Positions 48,862-56,514 of a stretch of DNA of 64,000 bases are shown here, one piece after another. A program made the translations under genes and the position numbers. This DNA comes from Saccharothrix longispora (GTDB lineage: Bacteria > Actinomycetota > Actinomycetes > Mycobacteriales > Pseudonocardiaceae). The DNA is taken from assembly GCF_030852425.1 (NCBI RefSeq), contig NZ_NSDM01000009.1, positions 248,001 to 312,000 of the forward strand, read 5' to 3'. The notes beneath the pieces are model-generated. The model did not search any database. It had not been told where the DNA came from and saw nothing but the letters and a program-made list of their open reading frames with translations. Position 1 is the stretch's first letter, and each line of letters starts with the position of its first letter.

Positions 48862-50462
48862 GTGACCTGGGACCGCCGGACCTCGGTCGTCGAGCTGTTC
48901 CGCGCGGTCGACGCGCTCGACCGGCCGCGGGTGGAAGCCCTGTGCGCGGACCTGGTCGAGGACCTGCGCGTCGACGAGCGCCCCTACCCGCTCGACCAGG
49001 CCCACCGCGTGCTGGGCGAACTGCGCCGCAAGCGGTACCTCGAACCGCTGCGCCGGGTCGCCGACGCGCTCATCCAGGCGGGTCGGTCCGATCCGACGAT
49101 CCGCCGGCACTACGCCCAGGCGCTGCTGGACCAGGGCGTGCTCACCGCCGCCGTCGCGGTGCTCGAACGCCTGCTGGAGGACGTCGCGTCGAGCCCGTAC
49201 GAGGCGACCGAGGCCCGCGGCCTGCTCGGCCGGGCCTACAAGCAGATGTACGTCACGACCGCCCCGACGGCCCCGGAGCGCAGGCGGCGCTTCCTGGAAC
49301 TCGCCGTCGAGCACTACCGCGGCGTGTACGACCAGGCCGGGCTCGCCCGGCACGGCATCAACCTGGTCGCCCTGCTGGTGCGGGCCCGCGAGGACGGCGT
49401 CGACCTGCCCGGCGACCCGCTGCTGATCGCGCGCAACGTGCTGGCCGCCGCCACGGGGCTCGGCCACGCCGCGGCGTGTGGGACCACGGCACCGCGCTGG
49501 AGGCGTGCGTGGCGCTGGGCAGGCACGAGGAGGCGGTGGAGCGGCTGCACGCCTACCTCGGCGCGGGCGCCGACGCGTTCGAGATCGCCGGGACCCTGCG
49601 GCAGTTGCGGGACGTGTGGCAGCTGGACGCGTCCCGCGAACCCGGCCTGTCCCTGCTGCCGGTGCTGGCGGGCGCGCTGCTGGCCCGTCGGCCGGCCGGT
49701 GACGTCGCGGTCGGCGCGGCCGAGCTGAGCGACGAGGTGCTCGACCGGCTCGACCACCTCCAGAAGCTGCTGGGCGACGAGGGCTTCCAGAGCCTCGCGT
49801 GGTTCCGCACCGCGCTGGAGCGGTGCCGGGCCGTGGCGCTGGTCGAGGACCCGGTGGACGGGGGAGTGGGCACCGGGTTCCTGGTGGACGGCAAGGCGCT
49901 GCACCCGTCGTGCCCGGACGTGGTGCTCGTGACCAACGCGCACGTGGTGTCGGCGGACCACCCGGGCGCGCTGCACCCGGACCGGGCGCTCGTGACGTTC
50001 CGCGCGCTGGAGTGCGGTCCGGGGCGCCGGATCAGGCGGGTGCTCTGGTCCTCGCCGGTGGACCGGCTGGACGTGACCGTCGCCGAGCTGGACGGCGTGC
50101 CCGCGCAGGCCACCCGCTGCCCGCCGGCCCGCCGCCGACCCGTGCTGCGGCCCGACGAGCCGACCAGCGCCTACGTCATCGGCCACCCGCGCGGTCGTGA
50201 GCAGGTGATGCTGTCGGTGCAGGACAACCGGCTGCTCGACGCCGACGACACCCGCCTGCACTACCGCACGCCGACCGAGGAGGGCAGTTCCGGCAGTCCC
50301 GTGTTCGACCGGCAGTGGGACCTGATCGCGGTCCACCACGCGGGCGGCACCCGGATGGCGCGGCTCAACGGGAGGCCCGGCCTGTACCCGGCCAACGAGG
50401 GCGTCTGGTTCGACCGGGTGCGGCAGGAGCTGGCCGCGGCGCTGGACGCCGGGCGCTCCTGA
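48862..50462 (+). pseudogene. Frameshifted TPR / trypsin-like protease protein
   Basis: The N-terminal 205 codons form a TPR-like helical domain (RRHYAQALLDQGVLTAAVAVLERLL). From about 49476 the likeness continues in another frame (WDHGTALEACVALGRHEEAVERL) into a trypsin-like domain with His in VTNAHVVSAD, Asp in LDVTVAEL and Ser in EGSSGSPVF. The break lies in GCGGCG at 49471-49476, where removing two bases restores one frame of about 530 codons. GTG 48862 follows the previous stop by 7 bp, so the two broken genes form one operon. The unspoiled protein would be a cytoplasmic protease with a TPR sensor domain. Confidence 0.78.
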
Positions 50463-50475
50463 TCCCCGACGACGG

Positions 50476-50511
50476 CGAGGCCACCGCACGGGCGGGCGCG
50501 CGGTGGCCTCG
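50476..50511. terminator. Hairpin terminator
   Basis: CGAGGCCACCGC and GCGGTGGCCTCG form a perfect 12-bp stem with a 12-nt loop, 13 bp after the protease frame ends. An AT-rich patch (50522-50555) follows. Confidence 0.75.
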
Positions 50512-50554
50512 GTTGTTCGACATCCTTTATTACTTCAGTGTTGCTTAAAAAGAA

Positions 50555-50974
50555 TCACTCGTCCGTGGGACTGGTGCGGTAGCTGTCGGTGTAGTACTCG
50601 CCCAGGCGGCGACGGTAGTCGTCGGCGTCGGGGTGCTCCGGGTCGTAGGCGGGCGCGTCGGTGACGTGCTTCTTCGTCCGGTCGACGCGGACCAGCTTGG
50701 CGTCGTGGTCGACCTCGCAGATGGCGCCCACCGGCAGCACCACCCGGTGGCTGGTCAGCCAGGTCCCCGTGTCCACCAGGAGGCAGTCCGCGGGCAGTTC
50801 GGCGTTGTGCTCGTCGACCTTGCCGATGCGGCCGTCGACCGCGTCCACCTCGTAGCCGAGCAGGCCGACGTCGGGGCGGCCGCGGTCCTGGGCGATGGTC
50901 CTGGTGGGGCTGTCCAGGACGGTCACCGCGTCGCGCCAGACCCAGGGCGCGAAGGGGAAGGGGTGTGGCTGCAT
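50555..50974 (-). CDS. PRC-barrel domain protein
   Basis: A 139-residue protein with one PRC-barrel beta domain (residues 35-105: GLLGYEVDAVDGRIGKVDE, CLLVDTGTWL, VVLPVGAICEVDHDAKLVRV) followed by a short acidic tail. PRC barrels bind RNA or photosynthetic complexes; in actinobacteria similar proteins are stress-related and of unknown role. AGAGGAGG precedes the ATG. The gene lies 49 bp downstream of the Nudix gene on the same strand and may be the last member of the HAIR-controlled operon. Confidence 0.82.
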   Translation of the reverse strand: MQPHPFPFAPWVWRDAVTVLDSPTRTIAQDRGRPDVGLLGYEVDAVDGRIGKVDEHNAELPADCLLVDTGTWLTSHRVVLPVGAICEVDHDAKLVRVDRTKKHVTDAPAYDPEHPDADDYRRRLGEYYTDSYRTSPTDE

Positions 50975-51023
50975 GTGGTCCTCCTCTGTCCGGTGACGGG
51001 GGAGGGGTACCCATTCGAGTGAC

Positions 51024-51659
51024 TCATGAGTCCCAGCGCCACACGGAGGGTGGTCTTCCGCCTCGGGGGAGGGCGGCGGCGTGCTGGGTGGTGCGCCGGA
51101 GGCCGGGCACGCGTTCCATGGTGCGGCCCAGGTTGGCGGGGTAGGGGCGGTCCCCGGTGAGCGCCTCGGTGGCGTCGAGGGCGTGGGCGGTGGTGAACTC
51201 GGGGCCGAGGAGGCCGGCGGTGAAGGCGGGGTCGCGCCAGAGCTTGTCGGCCAGGAGGGGGCGGCAGTCGGCGACGATGCGGTCGTGGTCGAAGGCCAGG
51301 GGCGGGACCTCGGCGAGGAACGCCCAGTGGGTGGGGCCGTCGGTGAGGCGGGTGGGGTCGAGGGTGACCCAGAGGGCGACGGACAGGGTGGGGCCGCGGG
51401 GGTCGCGGGAGGGTTCGTCGAAGGTGGCGAGCTGCCCGGTGGCGGAGATGGCGTCGGCGGGCAGGCCGAGCTTGTCGGTCACCGCGCGGCGGGCGGCGTC
51501 GCGGAGGCGTTCGCCGAGGCCGAGGAGGACGCCGGGGAGGGCGAGTTCCCCGGCGAACGGCTCGGCGGCACGGGGTGCGGTGCCGAGCAGGACGGCACGC
51601 CCGACCGGGTCGAAGCGCAGGGCCAGCACGTCCACCGAGACCGGGGTCGACTCGATCAT
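51024..51659 (-). CDS. Nudix-fold protein with degraded Nudix box
   Basis: A 211-residue protein. The N-terminal 140 residues have the Nudix fold, but the box that should read Gx5Ex7REUxEExGU here reads GERLRDAARRAVTDKLGL: the catalytic Glu residues of REUxEE are replaced by Ala, Asp and Lys. Hydrolysis is therefore doubtful and a ligand-binding role is more likely. Its start overlaps the stop of the PurA-like gene (ATGA), placing it fourth in the operon. The C-terminal part (RVPGLRRTTQHAAALPRG) is not recognised. Confidence 0.75.
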   Translation of the reverse strand: MIESTPVSVDVLALRFDPVGRAVLLGTAPRAAEPFAGELALPGVLLGLGERLRDAARRAVTDKLGLPADAISATGQLATFDEPSRDPRGPTLSVALWVTLDPTRLTDGPTHWAFLAEVPPLAFDHDRIVADCRPLLADKLWRDPAFTAGLLGPEFTTAHALDATEALTGDRPYPANLGRTMERVPGLRRTTQHAAALPRGGRPPSVWRWDS

Positions 51660-52855
51660 GTGGTGATTGTCGCGCACGTCCGGACGGTGTAGTGGGTGCG
51701 GTCGGGGCCGTGCCCGGTGACCAGGACGGGCCGGTCGAGGTGGTCGGTGATCCAGTGCCGGGGGTCGGGCATGTCGTGGGTGCCGTGCGCGGTGGTGACG
51801 CGGAGGTCGGTGGCGTCGAGGTGGGTGACGGCGAGGCCGTCGAGGCCGTCGCAGGCGTCGGCGGCGTAGGTGAGGAGTCGGGCGTCGAGGTGGCCGGTGC
51901 GCCAGGCGCCCTGGTAGTGGCCGGTGCCGTTGTGGCGTTCGGGGAAGCGGGCGAGGAGGGCGGGGTCCTCGGTGGGGAGTGGTCCGGCGCCGTGGCGGGT
52001 CTGGTAGGTGCGGGTGACGCCGAGGGTGGTGGCGGGGCGGCCGCGCAGGAGGGCGCGGGCGTTGTGGGGGGTGGTGGTGGACCAGGTGGTGTGGGGGTGG
52101 AAGCCGTGGTGCTGGTCGAGGAGGACGCCTTGGGCGCCTTCGAGGACGAGGCGGCCGGTGCCGGTGTCGGCGAGGCGGCCGACCTCGTCGCCGCGGGTGG
52201 TGCGGACGGCGGTGGCGAAGTCGCGGTAGAGCGCGACGAGGTCGTCGATGACGGGGCCGTCGCCGATGAGCGGTCGGTAGAAGCGGGCGAGGTCGTCGAG
52301 CTTGCGGCGCAGGGTGGTGGGGTGGGCGCAGTCGCCGACGCGGGGTGGTTCGCCGGGGGTGCCGGGGACGTGTTGGTGTTCGACGACGTCGCCTTCGGCG
52401 GCTCCGTGCAGGAGGGCGTACCAGGCGGTTTCGCCGATGCCCTTGCCGCAGGAGCCGTGGCGGCCGTCGCCGCGGGCGTCCTCGCGGGCGCGGTTGGCGG
52501 CGATGTGGAGGGGGGTGGTGAGGAGTGCGTCGGCGTCGACGGTGAGGGTGTCGAGGGGGTTGGGGATGCCGAGGGCTTCGAGTTCGCGGGTTTCGGTGGC
52601 GAGGGCGATGGGTTCGACGAGGACGTGGTGGGAGAGGTGGGTGGGCACGCCGGCGAGCGTGCCCGAGCCGTACTGGCTGAAGGTGTGGTGGCGGCCGTCG
52701 GCGACGACGTTGTGGGCGGCTTGGGCGCCGCCGTTGAAGCGGATGACGGCGGTGGTGGGGCGGTCGTGGCACAGGGCGTCCACGACCGCTCCCTTCCCCT
52801 CGTCGCCGAAGCCGAGGCCGACGACGATGACGTGGCCGGTGAGGTCGGTGGTCAT
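51656..52855 (-). CDS. Divergent adenylosuccinate synthetase (PurA) homologue
   Basis: A 399-residue PurA-fold protein. The GTP loop is intact and keeps the catalytic Asp (GLGFGDEGKG), as are EGAQGVLLDQHHG and the terminal GPDR. Other key parts differ: GGHNAGHT, which carries the catalytic His in PurA, is GGAQAAHN; TTGRGIGP is SCGKGIGE; and the aspartate-binding loop TTGRRRR is replaced by GTGHYQGAWR. It is also shorter than PurA (about 430). It is therefore unlikely to be the housekeeping enzyme and may ligate another amino compound or nucleotide. Start and stop overlap the VWA and Nudix genes, so it sits centrally in the operon. Confidence 0.8.
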   Translation of the reverse strand: MTTDLTGHVIVVGLGFGDEGKGAVVDALCHDRPTTAVIRFNGGAQAAHNVVADGRHHTFSQYGSGTLAGVPTHLSHHVLVEPIALATETRELEALGIPNPLDTLTVDADALLTTPLHIAANRAREDARGDGRHGSCGKGIGETAWYALLHGAAEGDVVEHQHVPGTPGEPPRVGDCAHPTTLRRKLDDLARFYRPLIGDGPVIDDLVALYRDFATAVRTTRGDEVGRLADTGTGRLVLEGAQGVLLDQHHGFHPHTTWSTTTPHNARALLRGRPATTLGVTRTYQTRHGAGPLPTEDPALLARFPERHNGTGHYQGAWRTGHLDARLLTYAADACDGLDGLAVTHLDATDLRVTTAHGTHDMPDPRHWITDHLDRPVLVTGHGPDRTHYTVRTCATITT

Positions 52856-53838
52856 GACAGGGTGACGTCGTCGGGGCCGTCGAGGGCGGGCGGGGTGGCG
52901 GCGCGGCGGGTGGCGGGGGTGCGTGCGCCGACCTGGACGAGGGCCTTGCCGACTGCTTCGCCCTCGGCGGCGGAGCCGACCTCGGCGAGGTCGACGAGCG
53001 CCTGGTCGAGGTCGACGACGCGTTCTTCGAGGCCGATGGTGGCGGCGATCAGCTCGCAGACGGCGCCGGGGTCGTCGAGCTTGAGGAAGTTCTGGCCGAG
53101 GAGGTCGCGCCAGTGGTCGGCGATCCGGGGGTCGTTGTAGTAGGAGGACTGGTTGGGGAGCACGAAGTAGACGTGCCACTTGCGGGCGAGTTCGCGGTAG
53201 ACGGAGGCGGGGTCGATGTCCTGGGTGATGTCGTCGCCGATGATGCGGCGGATGTGGCGCGCTTCGAGGCGGGGCTTGTTGAGCTCGTCGCCGATGAGGA
53301 AGAGGTAGCCCTTGCGGCCGCGCTTCTGCCAGGCGTCGGTGACGACGTGGCGGGCGATGAAGTAGGCGGCGAGTTCGTAGGACTCGCTCTTCTGGCCGCC
53401 GCCGTTGCCCTCCAGGAAGATGGTGCGGAGTTGTTCGTCCATGCGGTTGTCGGACTCGAACTGGCCGACCTGGAGGGGGACGCGGTCGCTGTCGGCGTCG
53501 CCGATGCCGCCGAAGAGGAGCTGGGGGTCGGTGAGGTAGCCCTTGCGCTGGATGAGGCCGTGCAGCTTGCCGAGCTTGCGCTGCATGATCTGGGGGACGC
53601 GGCCCATGGAGCCGGTGACGTCGAAGAGGACGGCGATGGGGGTGGAGTCGGCGTGGTCGGCGGAGTCGCGGCACTCGCGGGCGGTGACGCCCTTGGGGTC
53701 GAGCGAGGGGTCGGCCTTCCAGTTGGCGGACGAGGTCTTGCGCATGGCGGCGGTGTAGCCGAAGTCGTCGACGCCCTTGGCGGCGCGGAAGGTCTTGGCC
53801 GCCGCGTAGGCGTTGTCGTCCCACTTGCCGTGTCCCAT
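52852..53838 (-). CDS. VWA-domain protein of the HAIR-controlled operon
   Basis: A 328-residue cytoplasmic protein. An N-terminal segment (MGHGKWDDNAYAAAKTFRAAKG) precedes a von Willebrand A domain from about residue 65, with a MIDAS-like DVTGSMG and later GNGGGQKSESYELAAYF and LFLIGDELNK. It resembles the VWA proteins found with tellurium-resistance and stress gene sets. The C-terminal tail is flexible. GGAG lies 7 nt before the ATG. It starts 2 bp after the J-domain gene and overlaps the PurA-like gene by 4 bp. Confidence 0.85.
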   Translation of the reverse strand: MGHGKWDDNAYAAAKTFRAAKGVDDFGYTAAMRKTSSANWKADPSLDPKGVTARECRDSADHADSTPIAVLFDVTGSMGRVPQIMQRKLGKLHGLIQRKGYLTDPQLLFGGIGDADSDRVPLQVGQFESDNRMDEQLRTIFLEGNGGGQKSESYELAAYFIARHVVTDAWQKRGRKGYLFLIGDELNKPRLEARHIRRIIGDDITQDIDPASVYRELARKWHVYFVLPNQSSYYNDPRIADHWRDLLGQNFLKLDDPGAVCELIAATIGLEERVVDLDQALVDLAEVGSAAEGEAVGKALVQVGARTPATRRAATPPALDGPDDVTLS

Positions 53839-53840
53839 GG

Positions 53841-54851
53841 TCAGGCTCCTGTCGTGGTGGTGCGGGGGAGTGCGAACGGTCGGTAGGTGCGTTCGCCGTA
53901 GAGGTCGTCGAGCAGTTCGTCGTACTCGGTGAGCAGGTCGGCGGCGTCGGGGCGGCGTGCGGGGTCGTCCTGGGTGCAGCCGCGGGCGAAGGCGCGTTGG
54001 CGGGTTTCGCCGGGTGCCAGGAGGTCCAGCATGAGGGTGTGCGCCATGTGGACGTCGGTGGCGTGGGTGAGGGGGTGTCCGGTGTGGACTTCGGGTGGGT
54101 AGCGGGTGGTCCTGTCGGTGGCGAGGGGTGGTTGGCCGCTGTCGACGGCGAAGGTCCAGCCGACGAGGACGATGCCGTGCTGGGCGGGGTGGACGAGGAC
54201 GTTGTCGGTGGTGATGGCGCCGTGGACGAGTCCGGCGAGGTGGGCGCCGGCGACGGCGCGCAGGAGGCGGCGGTGCATCCAGGCGTAGTCGCGGCCGTCG
54301 AGCCCGTCGGGGAAGGCCTTCTTGACCTCGGTGAGGGTGGTGAAGCCGTCGGTGAGGGGTTCGAGGACGGTGAAGGCGCGGTCGCCGCGCGGGACGTCGC
54401 CGGAGGTGTCGAGGAGGCGGGGGTAGTAGGGGCGCAGCCAGGGGTGGCGGTCGGTGAGGCGTCGGAGCGCGGTGAGGGCGTGCCACTCGGCGTGCAGGAG
54501 GGGGTTGAGGGCGGGGTTGCGGACGAGTTTGACGAGGTGGGGGCCGTCGGTGCGGTAGAGGTTGGCGACGCTGCCGACGGCGTGGAGGTCGGTGGTGCGG
54601 TAGGTGGTGGTGGCGGTGTGGAGTTCGGTGGCGGGGGTCTGCTGCCACTCGTGGTGCAGTCGGGTGAGTTCGGCGGAGGCGGCGTGCGCCCTGGTGTCGT
54701 GGGGGCCGACCTTGTCGGGGTGCAGGACGGCGGCGAGTGACCGGTAGAGGCGCTGTGCTTCCTTGCGCCGCGCGGGGTCGCGGGGGCCGAACAGGTCGGC
54801 CGCGTCGCGGGCCCGTTCGACCCGGTCGAGGGCTTCCTGCCTGGTGAGCAT
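53841..54851 (-). CDS. J-domain / pseudokinase fusion protein
   Basis: A 336-residue protein heading the operon. Residues 5-75 form a J domain with the DnaK-activating HPD motif (LHPDKVG, residues 44-46). Residues 95-320 have a protein-kinase-like fold: Lys in HLVKLVR, and a catalytic-loop position reading LVHGAITTDNVLV, where HRD is HGA and only Asn is kept. The DFG Asp is absent (VLVGWTF). It is thus a predicted pseudokinase tethered to a DnaK co-chaperone. There is no ribosome-binding site: TAGACT lies 6 nt before the ATG, so the mRNA is leaderless and its promoter is inside the HAIR palindrome. Confidence 0.85.
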   Translation of the reverse strand: MLTRQEALDRVERARDAADLFGPRDPARRKEAQRLYRSLAAVLHPDKVGPHDTRAHAASAELTRLHHEWQQTPATELHTATTTYRTTDLHAVGSVANLYRTDGPHLVKLVRNPALNPLLHAEWHALTALRRLTDRHPWLRPYYPRLLDTSGDVPRGDRAFTVLEPLTDGFTTLTEVKKAFPDGLDGRDYAWMHRRLLRAVAGAHLAGLVHGAITTDNVLVHPAQHGIVLVGWTFAVDSGQPPLATDRTTRYPPEVHTGHPLTHATDVHMAHTLMLDLLAPGETRQRAFARGCTQDDPARRPDAADLLTEYDELLDDLYGERTYRPFALPRTTTTGA

Positions 54852-54880
54852 GGTTTGAGTCTATACGACTCAAACCATGC
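54848..54880. promoter_or_regulatory. HAIR-type HspR operator overlapping promoter and start codon
   Basis: A perfect 14-bp inverted repeat (GCATGGTTTGAGTC at 54848-54861, complement at 54867-54880) with a 5-bp centre. It contains TTTGAGT-N7-ACTCAAA (54854-54874), matching the HspR site CTTGAGT-N7-ACTCAAG at 12 of 14 arm positions. The -10 box TAGACT (minus strand, 54863 to 54858) and the ATG lie inside it, so binding must block transcription. Confidence 0.82.
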
Positions 54881-55417
54881 TTCGGGGCGGAATGCCGCTG
54901 TGGTCCCCATCACGTGACGTTGTGTGATCGCCGGGCGTGGCACTCCGGCGGTGCCGATTCCTCCTGCGGTCACCAGTCGCGTTCGCTGGAGCCTGCTCCG
55001 CGAACTCCTTCTCCCCCCCGCTGCGCGCGGACGTGCCGGCGTGTCCGCTTCCCGTCGGAACGGGAGTCCGCCTCGCGCACCGCGCGACCCGCCCTGCGCG
55101 GGATCGTCACGAGCCACCCGGGGCGCGCCGTGCTCGACCGCGTGCCGCTCACCGGCACCCCGGCGGGCACGCCGACCGGTCGCCGTCACCCGGCCTGGTC
55201 GAGCGGCGTGACCTGCTGGTGCCGGACGAGTCGACGGACCACCTGTCGCCCGCGCCGGCCGGCTGCCCCGGTGCGCTCGTCGTGGTCAGGCGCGACCGGT
55301 GCGGCCGTGACCGGATCCGCGGCGCGTGCCCGCACCACCCCGCACCGGGCGCACGCCCCCGCACCGGACGCGTGACCACACCGTTTGCCCACCCACCGCG
55401 CCGGGTAAGTCCGAATC
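54881..55417. other. 537-bp region without recognised gene
   Basis: Several overlapping open frames exist on both strands but none shows a start with ribosome-binding site, a known motif or consistent amino-acid composition. It should hold the promoter of the polyphosphate kinase gene. I see no repeat or RNA structure that stands out. Confidence 0.5.
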
Positions 55418-56407
55418 GTGAACACCGCGCTCGACCTCTCCGAACGGTTCCCCGGGCTCGACATCTCCGGCCTGGTGGTGGACTACGACGACGCCGACGA
55501 CCCGGTCCTGCGCCACGCCGACGGCACGCTCATCGACACCTGGCGGGAGAACTACCCGTACCGGGAGCGGATGACGCGCGAGGACTACGAGCTGGCCAAG
55601 CGGCTGCTCCAGATCGAGCTGCTCAAGCTCCAGTACTGGATCAAGGACACCGGCGGGCGCATGGTCGTCGTGTTCGAGGGGCGCGACGCCGCCGGCAAGG
55701 GCGGCACCATCAAGCGGTTCACCGAGCACCTCAACCCCCGCGGCGCGCGCGTGGTGGCGCTGAGCAAGCCCACCGACCGCGAGCAGGGGGAGTGGTACTT
55801 CCAGCGCTACGCCAACCACCTGCCCACCGCCGGCGAGATCGTGCTGTTCGACCGCTCCTGGTACAACCGGGCCGGCGTCGAACGGGTGATGGGCTACTGC
55901 ACCGACGAGCAGTACCAGCGGTTCATGCGGCAGGCGCCCACGTTCGAGAAGATGCTGGTCGACGACGGGATCGTGCTGGTCAAGCTGTGGTTCTCGGTGT
56001 CGCGCGCGGAGCAGCGCACCAGGTTCCTCATCCGCCAGGTCGACCCCGTCCGGCAGTGGAAGCTCAGCCCCAACGACATCCGCTCGCTCGACCGGTGGGA
56101 CGCCTACACCGAGGCCAAGGTCGCCATGTTCCGCGCCACCGACACCGCCCGCGCGCCGTGGACGGTCGTCAAGAGCAACGACAAGAAGCGCGCCCGCATC
56201 GAGGCCATGCGCAGCATCCTGGCCCGCATCGACTACGCCGACAAGGACCCGGAGGTGGTCGGCGAACCCGACCCGCGCGTCGTCGGCGCCGCGGCCACCC
56301 TGCTGGAGGAGGGCGAGGACGAGTCCTCGCTCAGCCCCACGCCCATCGCGCCCACCGACGACCCCGACCACGGCCCCGGCATCCACCCCGAGGACACCCG
56401 GACCTGA
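55418..56407 (+). CDS. ppk2: PPK2-family polyphosphate kinase
   Basis: A 329-residue enzyme transferring phosphate between polyphosphate and nucleotides. Walker A is FEGRDAAGKGGTIKR near residue 87, the lid module contains NPRGARVVAL and Walker B is VLFDRSWYNRAGVERVMGY. The single-domain length is that of class I PPK2, which favours making nucleoside triphosphates from diphosphates. A 40-residue acidic tail is extra. GTG 55418 starts the conserved N terminus; no clear ribosome-binding site is visible. It is not linked to a ppk1 or ppx gene here. Confidence 0.92.
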   Translation: MNTALDLSERFPGLDISGLVVDYDDADDPVLRHADGTLIDTWRENYPYRERMTREDYELAKRLLQIELLKLQYWIKDTGGRMVVVFEGRDAAGKGGTIKRFTEHLNPRGARVVALSKPTDREQGEWYFQRYANHLPTAGEIVLFDRSWYNRAGVERVMGYCTDEQYQRFMRQAPTFEKMLVDDGIVLVKLWFSVSRAEQRTRFLIRQVDPVRQWKLSPNDIRSLDRWDAYTEAKVAMFRATDTARAPWTVVKSNDKKRARIEAMRSILARIDYADKDPEVVGEPDPRVVGAAATLLEEGEDESSLSPTPIAPTDDPDHGPGIHPEDTRT

Positions 56408-56514
56408 CGCGGGCGCGGTCCCGGTCGGCGCGCTCCGCCGGGTTGCCCCGCCCCGCCGCCCACGGTGGACTGATCACCGACCGGATGCCGGAACCGACGT
56501 GCAGGGGGATGCCG

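Follow-up and report, generated by a model that had tools for sequence, protein, structure and literature searches.

Results

This analysis points to a ligand-inducible operon of four genes in Saccharothrix longispora. The DNA analysed was a window of 64,000 nucleotides (positions 248,001 to 312,000 of contig NZ_NSDM01000009.1; G000:C54:248001-312000 in our data set) inside the 8.28-Mb genome, and the operon occupies positions 51024-54851 on its minus strand (Table 1). The four member genes encode a J-domain pseudokinase (JKIN), a VWA-like protein, a PurA-like protein and a Nudix-domain protein; the last of these is, by profile and alignment, an NrtR-family regulator. We give a probability of roughly 0.6 to a model in which the operon is repressed by this NrtR protein until a ligand is bound, and in which the three other products (hereafter, the triad) would act as one unit. 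The gene neighbourhoods compared below show that the JKIN, VWA-like and PurA-like genes are passed on together, in phages as in bacteria, and that bacteria pair this set with an NrtR gene. What appears to be new is the module itself, each part belonging to a known superfamily. An earlier reading of this DNA from its letters alone (the sequence-only reading) knew of no described system of such composition, and no description was found in the open-access literature of one library, to which this claim is limited.

Linkage of the triad in bacteria, plasmids and phages

One hundred bacterial loci were compared, namely 20 stretches of 15 kb selected by JKIN, drawn from 41 other matching genomes, and the best 80 of at least 551 VWA relatives in genome_contigs. 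Because the loci were picked by a JKIN or VWA match, the counts describe best-matching copies. The gene set seen by the sequence-only reading is indeed kept together: all four genes were present in 71 loci (20/20 of those selected by JKIN), the VWA-like, PurA-like and NrtR genes in 27, and two loci were cut by contig ends. The gene order is variable, with NrtR standing last, convergent or first. When 30 bacterial loci were examined, no other family recurred in more than seven, an antisense artefact (10 loci) being set aside. JKIN matches were found in 42 of 249 genomes of the order and VWA matches in 2 of 396 genomes of a draw from the phylum, this genome being included in both counts. Among the matches listed, the nearest named VWA relatives were 85-89% (Saccharothrix) and 79-89% (Pseudonocardiaceae) identical.

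Matches to P0002 also occurred in 21 of 72,556 plasmids. Eight plasmid loci, two of them nearly identical, carried the VWA-like gene in eight cases, JKIN and PurA-like genes in seven each and NrtR in six; NrtR was divergent in the five proteobacterial plasmid loci having it. Genes for AAA ATPase, DUF5682 and DUF4132 proteins come after the operon on an Agrobacterium vitis plasmid (L171:8304-12699) and seem to form a system of their own.

The occurrence of the triad in phages changes the picture the most and lay beyond the view of the sequence-only reading. P0002 matches were found in 208 of 50,697 phage records, 189 of which are named Mycobacterium phages; in phage Tonenili the kinase, VWA-like and PurA-like proteins are gp106, gp105 and gp104. 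IMG/VR contained 289 stretches encoding VWA relatives, and the best 80 of these loci (some duplicates) carried PurA-like genes in 77, JKIN in 54 and NrtR in 2. When the 1557 open reading frames of 84 viral loci were clustered, only the three triad families occurred in at least six loci, once an antisense artefact (17 loci) was discounted. Since this linkage holds though the viral VWA proteins are mostly 31-42% identical to that of Tonenili, the triad probably forms a working unit.

A quick tree of PurA-like proteins (99 rows) placed the family apart from PurA and PurZ0 (SH-aLRT 99), with the actinobacterial copies (including three phage rows) and five of six proteobacterial copies forming two groups inside the phage diversity. 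Because the bacterial clades nest in this way, diversification in phages and at least two bacterial uptakes are favoured. We suggest tentatively, at slightly less than even odds, that the triad served phages as an infection tool and diversified there, and that bacteria took it up at least twice under NrtR control for a stress or phage response.

Two sets of observations weigh against these readings. The tree has a long outgroup branch, and 34 of its 91 inner branches are open. JKIN is absent in 28/100 bacterial loci and was not found in 26/80 viral loci, and JKIN is therefore not strictly required as a member; the Rhizobium and Vibrio phage pieces scanned likewise carried VWA-like and PurA-like genes without a JKIN match. 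The 28 bacterial loci, all from Nocardia and lying between L116 and L157, keep the VWA-like and PurA-like genes and, in 27 cases, NrtR, the other being at a contig end. The loss of JKIN from these loci may be informative on its role.

The NrtR-family regulator and its predicted operator

A profile of 21 Nudix proteins of the operon matched AraR (5bs6, E 5.6e-36; positions 6-208 of 214) and SoNrtR (3gz5, E 3.8e-29; positions 4-209) over both domains. The same profile matched the winged-helix part of NadQ (7q91), and its top match was a MutT/nudix family protein (2fml, E 3.3e-36). A regulator model of NCBIfam spans residues 29-208 of P0004, far under its curated cut-off (E 0.0023). The arrangement that defines the NrtR family, a Nudix-like domain followed by a C-terminal winged helix, was thus found by profile and alignment. 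The broken Nudix box reported by the sequence-only reading was confirmed by eye in P0004 and its close relatives, and looks intact in L046-L052; the protein is, however, an NrtR-type regulator rather than an isolated enzyme-like product. Impairment of the Nudix box is a known trait of NrtR regulators, as stated in an excerpt of PMC4666351.

The perfect inverted repeat of the sequence-only reading was found at 54847-54881, with arms of 15 + 15 nucleotides (100% complementary) and a 5-nt spacer. The pattern TTGAGT-N7-ACTCAA, searched with up to two mismatches, occurs at one place in the window, where it is exact; shuffled sequences had a mean of 0.21 sites, with at least one in 19 of 100. Across relatives, the conserved operator has the consensus GTTTKAGTC-N5-GACTMAAAC. 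A score of at least 14/18 was obtained upstream of the first gene in 93/93 loci in which NrtR is not first (at least 16 in 90), while a control with this pattern upstream of NrtR, run on 91 of those loci, gave a maximum of 11/18. The 28 Nocardia loci without JKIN have the operator before the VWA-like gene instead. Positions 5 and 19 co-vary between the two arms, with G.C in 46 loci, T.A in 45 and another combination in 2 (n = 93); a slightly different site taken in one locus gives 45 for G.C, and 46 was used.

The position of the operator relative to the gene start is also conserved, with its 3' edge 1-2 nt before the start codon in 64 of 65 loci in which JKIN is first. The spacer ends in TA at its 3' side in 87/93 operators, and we read this pattern as a likely TAnACT-like -10 element inside the operator with a leaderless start. 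A promoter and terminator scan led nowhere, its sigma-70 search giving no consensus pair. Taken together, the palindrome is best read as a predicted NrtR operator.

Some observations count against this reading. In the 7/100 loci that begin with NrtR, JKIN is not preceded by an operator (best score 10/18), and repeats of a different layout lie upstream of NrtR. In this genome, the operon has the sole site within two mismatches of GTTTKAGT-N7-ACTMAAAC, and the reversed-pattern control also gave one. In a scan of nine genomes at the same threshold, eight had the operon site alone and one had two extra weak sites; as the reversed-pattern controls gave 0-4 sites per genome, a lone site carries little weight unless it is an exact match. 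Target sites of NrtR elsewhere, such as before NAD or sugar genes, were absent within two mismatches in 8/9 genomes, although a diverged site could be missed.

Repeated CTCA/TGAG half-sites were seen upstream of the first-gene NrtR in several of the loci L046-L052, with a spacing unlike that of the other operators. At the NrtR stop codon (window positions 51021-51032) there is a short, perfect palindrome, GACTCATGAGTC, which includes the operator half-site GACTCA and is possibly due to chance.

The sequence-only reading had placed the operon under HspR acting at a HAIR element, which would make it part of the DnaK heat-shock regulon. This guess was reasonable because this genome has just two further sites within one mismatch of TTGAGT-N7-ACTCAA, and they precede dnaK and lon (gene identities checked); the J domain of the first gene speaks for it as well. 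The HAIR-like sites of this genome at L054 and L055, before dnaK (where a second site, read by eye, stands closer to the gene) and lon, are consistent with an ordinary HspR regulon. However, the HAIR core TTGAGY-N7-RCTCAA, which is matched in the copy of the window, is not conserved across relatives. It is present at 31/93 operators (30/93 under an alternative choice of site in one locus; 31 was used), that is, at 31/50 outside the Nocardiaceae set and 0/43 in Nocardiaceae, where both arms were changed together. HAIR sites are retained elsewhere in genomes that lack one at the operon, namely before lon in G080, before lon and dnaK in G214 and G090, and before dnaK in G055 and G228, and 9/16 of the relatives' HAIR sites with locus sequence stand before dnaK or lon. 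Moreover, the 23-mer has nearly invariant outer bases (G, T and A, C) that fall outside HAIR. The scans themselves are weakened by their reversed-pattern controls (4 per strand vs 3 real sites in this genome; 0-6 per genome vs 2-5 in relatives). HspR was rejected as the conserved regulator on the core count, the persistence of HAIR at dnaK and lon and the paired arm changes, and membership of the operon in the heat-shock regulon appears very unlikely. Since 31/93 operators still hold the HAIR core, HspR could bind some of them, a further point against control by NrtR alone; HspR may touch some copies without being the conserved regulator.

The PurA-like enzyme

PurA phosphorylates the 6-oxo group of the purine and couples the amino group of free aspartate to the activated purine. 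An ordinary PurA is encoded separately in the same genome (contig C1, E 4.5e-180), and profile matches of the PurA-like family to adenylosuccinate synthetases (AdSS) in PDB reached E values down to 1.9e-33. We aligned 121 PurA-like proteins, 74 of them from viruses, with the ordinary PurA of this genome and PurZ0 of phage Wayne, excluding viral pieces of up to 320 residues and taking every fifth of 79 genome_contigs copies. Residues are given in E. coli numbering, to which the contact residues of the Helicobacter pylori enzyme presumably correspond. Asp13, Lys16, His41, Glu221 and Gln224 were retained in 121/121 proteins; we take Asp13, Lys16, His41 and Gln224 to serve guanosine triphosphate (GTP) use and proton transfer. 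A loss of the catalytic His of PurA was considered and discarded, His41 being present in all members.

The substrate sites present a different picture. An excerpt of PMC11276676 lists Asn37, Thr121, Thr230, Val264, Arg135' and Arg294 as the inosine monophosphate (IMP) contacts of H. pylori AdSS, and Arg303 of E. coli contacts aspartate too, according to part of PMC8342488. In the family, Asn38 is replaced by Gln in 118/121 (kept in 3), Thr129 by Cys or Val in 113/121 (kept in 8) and Val273 by His in 121/121; Arg143 is Arg in 5/121 only, Arg303 is absent in 121/121 and Thr239 is retained in 118/121. A first alignment gave a five-residue deletion in the aspartate loop; this was dropped after a second alignment showed a replacement and a one-residue gap, Arg303 missing in both. 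Residues unlike both PurA and PurZ0 mark the family, namely His57 (117), His133 (116) and Asn309 (120). Membership in PurZ was ruled out by Asp13, which is Ser in PurZ0 of Wayne and Asp in 121/121 family members, and by the lack of a recurrent nucleotide-pool gene nearby. The altered loops of the sequence-only reading are therefore confirmed at the substrate sites but not at Asp13, Lys16, His41 and Gln224, which are kept.

As these four residues are invariant while the ligands of IMP and aspartate are replaced, the engine is read as intact and the substrate as changed. The protein is probably an active GTP-dependent enzyme that phosphorylates a 6-oxo group and uses a substrate other than the usual pair of IMP and aspartate. 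A point against this is that PurZ remodels its aspartate loop and still uses aspartate, according to a section of PMC8342488; since PurZ also reshapes this loop, aspartate is still allowed as a substrate.

The J-domain pseudokinase and the VWA-like protein

In P0001, HPD is kept, HRD is changed to HGA and DFG to GWT. The JKIN N-terminus matched the three DnaJ domains of the genome itself with a profile probability of 97% (E 7.9e-11); the Pfam DnaJ model alone fell under its cut-off on P0001 (E 0.064). The union of a J domain with a kinase fold lacking the catalytic Asp, as described by the sequence-only reading, was upheld across 132 JKIN proteins (viral proteins of up to 250 residues excluded; L052 dropped for an uncertain start), with HPD present in 122 and the Asp of HRD absent in 128, the four that have it being viral copies. 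PHROGs labels the family of P0001 as kinase and that of P0002 as unknown. In a Variovorax plasmid copy (L174:4879-5862), a zinc-ribbon-like segment apparently stands in place of the J domain (by eye).

In the VWA-like protein, the D, T/S and S of the metal ion-dependent adhesion site (MIDAS) motif DxTGS are each present in 130-131/132 proteins, and Asp184 in 132/132. A comparison with ordinary VWA domains gave a co-linear match over 180 columns (probability 53%, P 1.4e-4), with three controls at P >= 0.097. No VWA model of Pfam matched the protein, which speaks against the assignment; the Pfam matches were to three other models. VWA membership rests on the MIDAS motif and this modest match of 53%. 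A PDB search with the VWA-like protein led nowhere.

Gene layout and neighbouring features

The gene spacing described by the sequence-only reading was reproduced, with a gap of 2 bp between JKIN and the VWA-like gene and overlaps of 4 bp at both the VWA-like/PurA-like and PurA-like/NrtR junctions. That reading also counted the next gene, which it named PRC-barrel, as part of the operon. It follows the NrtR gene after 49 bp. Its membership was rejected, since a homologue lay near the operon, about 2 kb off, in 2/20 of the first relatives only. No family model named its product in the scans run. The convergent neighbour (48942-50462, plus strand) encodes the stretch GSSGSPVF, presumably trypsin-like. 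An Rfam scan of window positions 49000-56500 led nowhere.

Table 1 Features of the operon and its surroundings (positions in the window)
Feature	Position	Strand	Evidence or remark
J-domain pseudokinase (JKIN, P0001)	53841..54851	-	J domain + kinase fold; phrog_3043 (E 1.3e-26)
VWA-like protein, MIDAS motif DVTGS (P0002)	52852..53838	-	phrog_2971 (E 2.5e-74), profile match
PurA-like enzyme, adenylosuccinate synthetase superfamily (P0006)	51656..52855	-	phrog_1211 (E 1.1e-64), alignment
NrtR-family regulator, Nudix-like sensor + C-terminal winged helix (P0004)	51024..51659	-	profile match, alignment
PRC-barrel-like gene (name from the sequence-only reading), outside operon	50555..50974	-	
23-bp operator GTTTGAGTC-GTATA-GACTCAAAC, read as NrtR-type	54853..54875	-	conservation across relatives
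Possible -10 hexamer TAGACT within operator (leaderless start; our reading)	54858..54863	-	sequence, spacer conservation

Discussion

Based on these features, we hypothesise that the operon is regulated as described below. NrtR bound to the operator at the start of the first gene would keep the operon repressed; a nucleotide-like ligand on the Nudix domain would release NrtR, and the operon would be switched on. Such repression and release by the operon's own NrtR is very probable, judged from the family of the regulator and the conservation of the operator. The PurA-like enzyme would then phosphorylate the 6-oxo group of a purine with GTP, while the VWA-like protein, through Mg2+-dependent protein binding, and JKIN, through recruitment of DnaK by its HPD, would hold or deliver the enzyme or its target. 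That these three act as one complex is possible, though somewhat short of an even chance. Phages mostly carry the triad without the NrtR repressor.

With another loop in place of the one for free aspartate, and with two partners that handle proteins, the triad was also considered as a protein-modifying machine, which would link a protein amine to C6 of a hypoxanthine-type nucleotide ('purinylation'). DnaK, JKIN and the VWA-like protein would present the target protein to the enzyme; large phages would act on host proteins in this way, and bacteria would have adopted the triad under a nucleotide-sensing repressor. This version is speculative and quite improbable.

Other explanations turn on what the PurA-like protein does. 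PurZ makes 2-aminoadenine, and the triad might similarly make a modified nucleotide for phage DNA, with bacteria using the product as a signal or for protection. Its presence in isolated and metagenomic phages fits such a role, as does the PHROGs name of phrog_1211, '2-aminooxy adenylosuccinate synthetase'. Nucleotide-metabolism genes are annotated near some copies, in Rhizobium phage TM30 and Vibrio phage TDDLMA; in RHph_TM30 (L172:942-3269), the VWA/PurA-like pair is preceded by genes with the annotations hydrolase, phosphoribosyltransferase-like protein and cytidyltransferase. However, position 13 separates the family from PurZ0 of Wayne, no nucleotide-pool gene stands beside the triad in at least six of the 84 viral loci, and synthesis of a free nucleotide needs no protein-binding partners with J and VWA domains; we regard this explanation as unlikely. 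Alternatively, the PurA-like protein could be a pseudo-enzyme, a nucleotide sensor gating a VWA/JKIN complex. It has lost the ligands of the IMP phosphate and aspartate, and its partner kinase is itself a pseudo-enzyme, but residues for GTP and proton transfer that are invariant in 121/121 and near-invariant family-specific residues would be unusual for a dead enzyme, and this too is rather doubtful. The sequence-only reading's notion of enzyme-like proteins turned sensors suits the kinase and the Nudix protein better than the PurA-like protein.

A further alternative is a bacterial anti-phage system, or phage counter-defence, that repairs or modifies proteins by a logic like that of ADP-ribosylglycohydrolase (ARG) systems. 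The patchy spread in the order and the phylum draw, the copies on plasmids and phages, and the NrtR and vWA logic in the part of PMC9503650 that covers ARG systems (section 3.8) are in line with this. PADLOC matched the kinase part of P0001 to MkoA (E 1.8e-8), mad6 (E 9.9e-5) and PD-T4-6 (E 0.001), matches that may reflect only the kinase fold. Neither a nuclease nor another effector family recurs beside the triad, and PADLOC had no match for the VWA-like or NrtR protein; the odds are moderately against such a system.

Returning to the preferred model of an NrtR-repressed operon with a triad as its working unit, the triad has stayed together in bacteria of two phyla and in numerous divergent large phages, among them the much-sampled cluster C mycobacteriophages, and must matter to them. 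The PurA-like proteins would be a new enzyme family in the adenylosuccinate synthetase superfamily, with the engine intact and the substrate to be found. The module may link phage infection to the DnaK machinery, and NrtR with its operator offers a simple handle for identifying the signal. If the enzyme does modify proteins, this would be a new kind of post-translational modification.

Comparison with known systems

The window copy resembles the HspR/HAIR regulon in its half-site TTGAGT and N7 spacing, and differs in that the core is not kept in the relatives of the operon. Within the NrtR family, SoNrtR and AraR share the Nudix and winged-helix domains along the full length, and the Mycobacterium smegmatis NrtR operator GTTTTCGA-N7-TCGAAAAC, as given in an excerpt of PMC6800001, has the same length, spacing and outer GTTT/AAAC as the 23-mer. 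The regulator described here differs in that its own operon was the only target found in 8/9 genomes, and no other gene family was seen to recur widely beside it.

The PurA-like protein belongs to the same superfamily as PurA and shares its Asp13, Lys16, His41 and Gln224; it differs in the IMP-phosphate ligands Asn38, Thr129 and Arg143 and in the aspartate loop with Arg303, which are replaced or lost. PurZ/PurZ0 are likewise phage-borne PurA paralogues with a changed aspartate loop, and both they and the PurA-like family have Gln at the position of Gln315 of P0006. PurZ0 of Wayne differs by its Ser at position 13 vs Asp here, and a neighbour of the Z-cluster type is not recurrent beside the triad.

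Another comparison is with ARG-centred systems, in which a Nudix repressor and a vWA chaperone stand in a bacterial operon thought to answer phage (PMC9503650, section 3.8). An ARG gene was not among the recurrent neighbours here (families other than the core and an antisense artefact in at most 7/30 bacterial and 5/84 viral loci; no ARG profile was run). As far as that section describes them, these systems share with the present operon an NrtR-type repressor and a vWA protein, and differ in that JKIN and the PurA-like protein here replace the ADP-ribosylglycohydrolase and the phosphatase.

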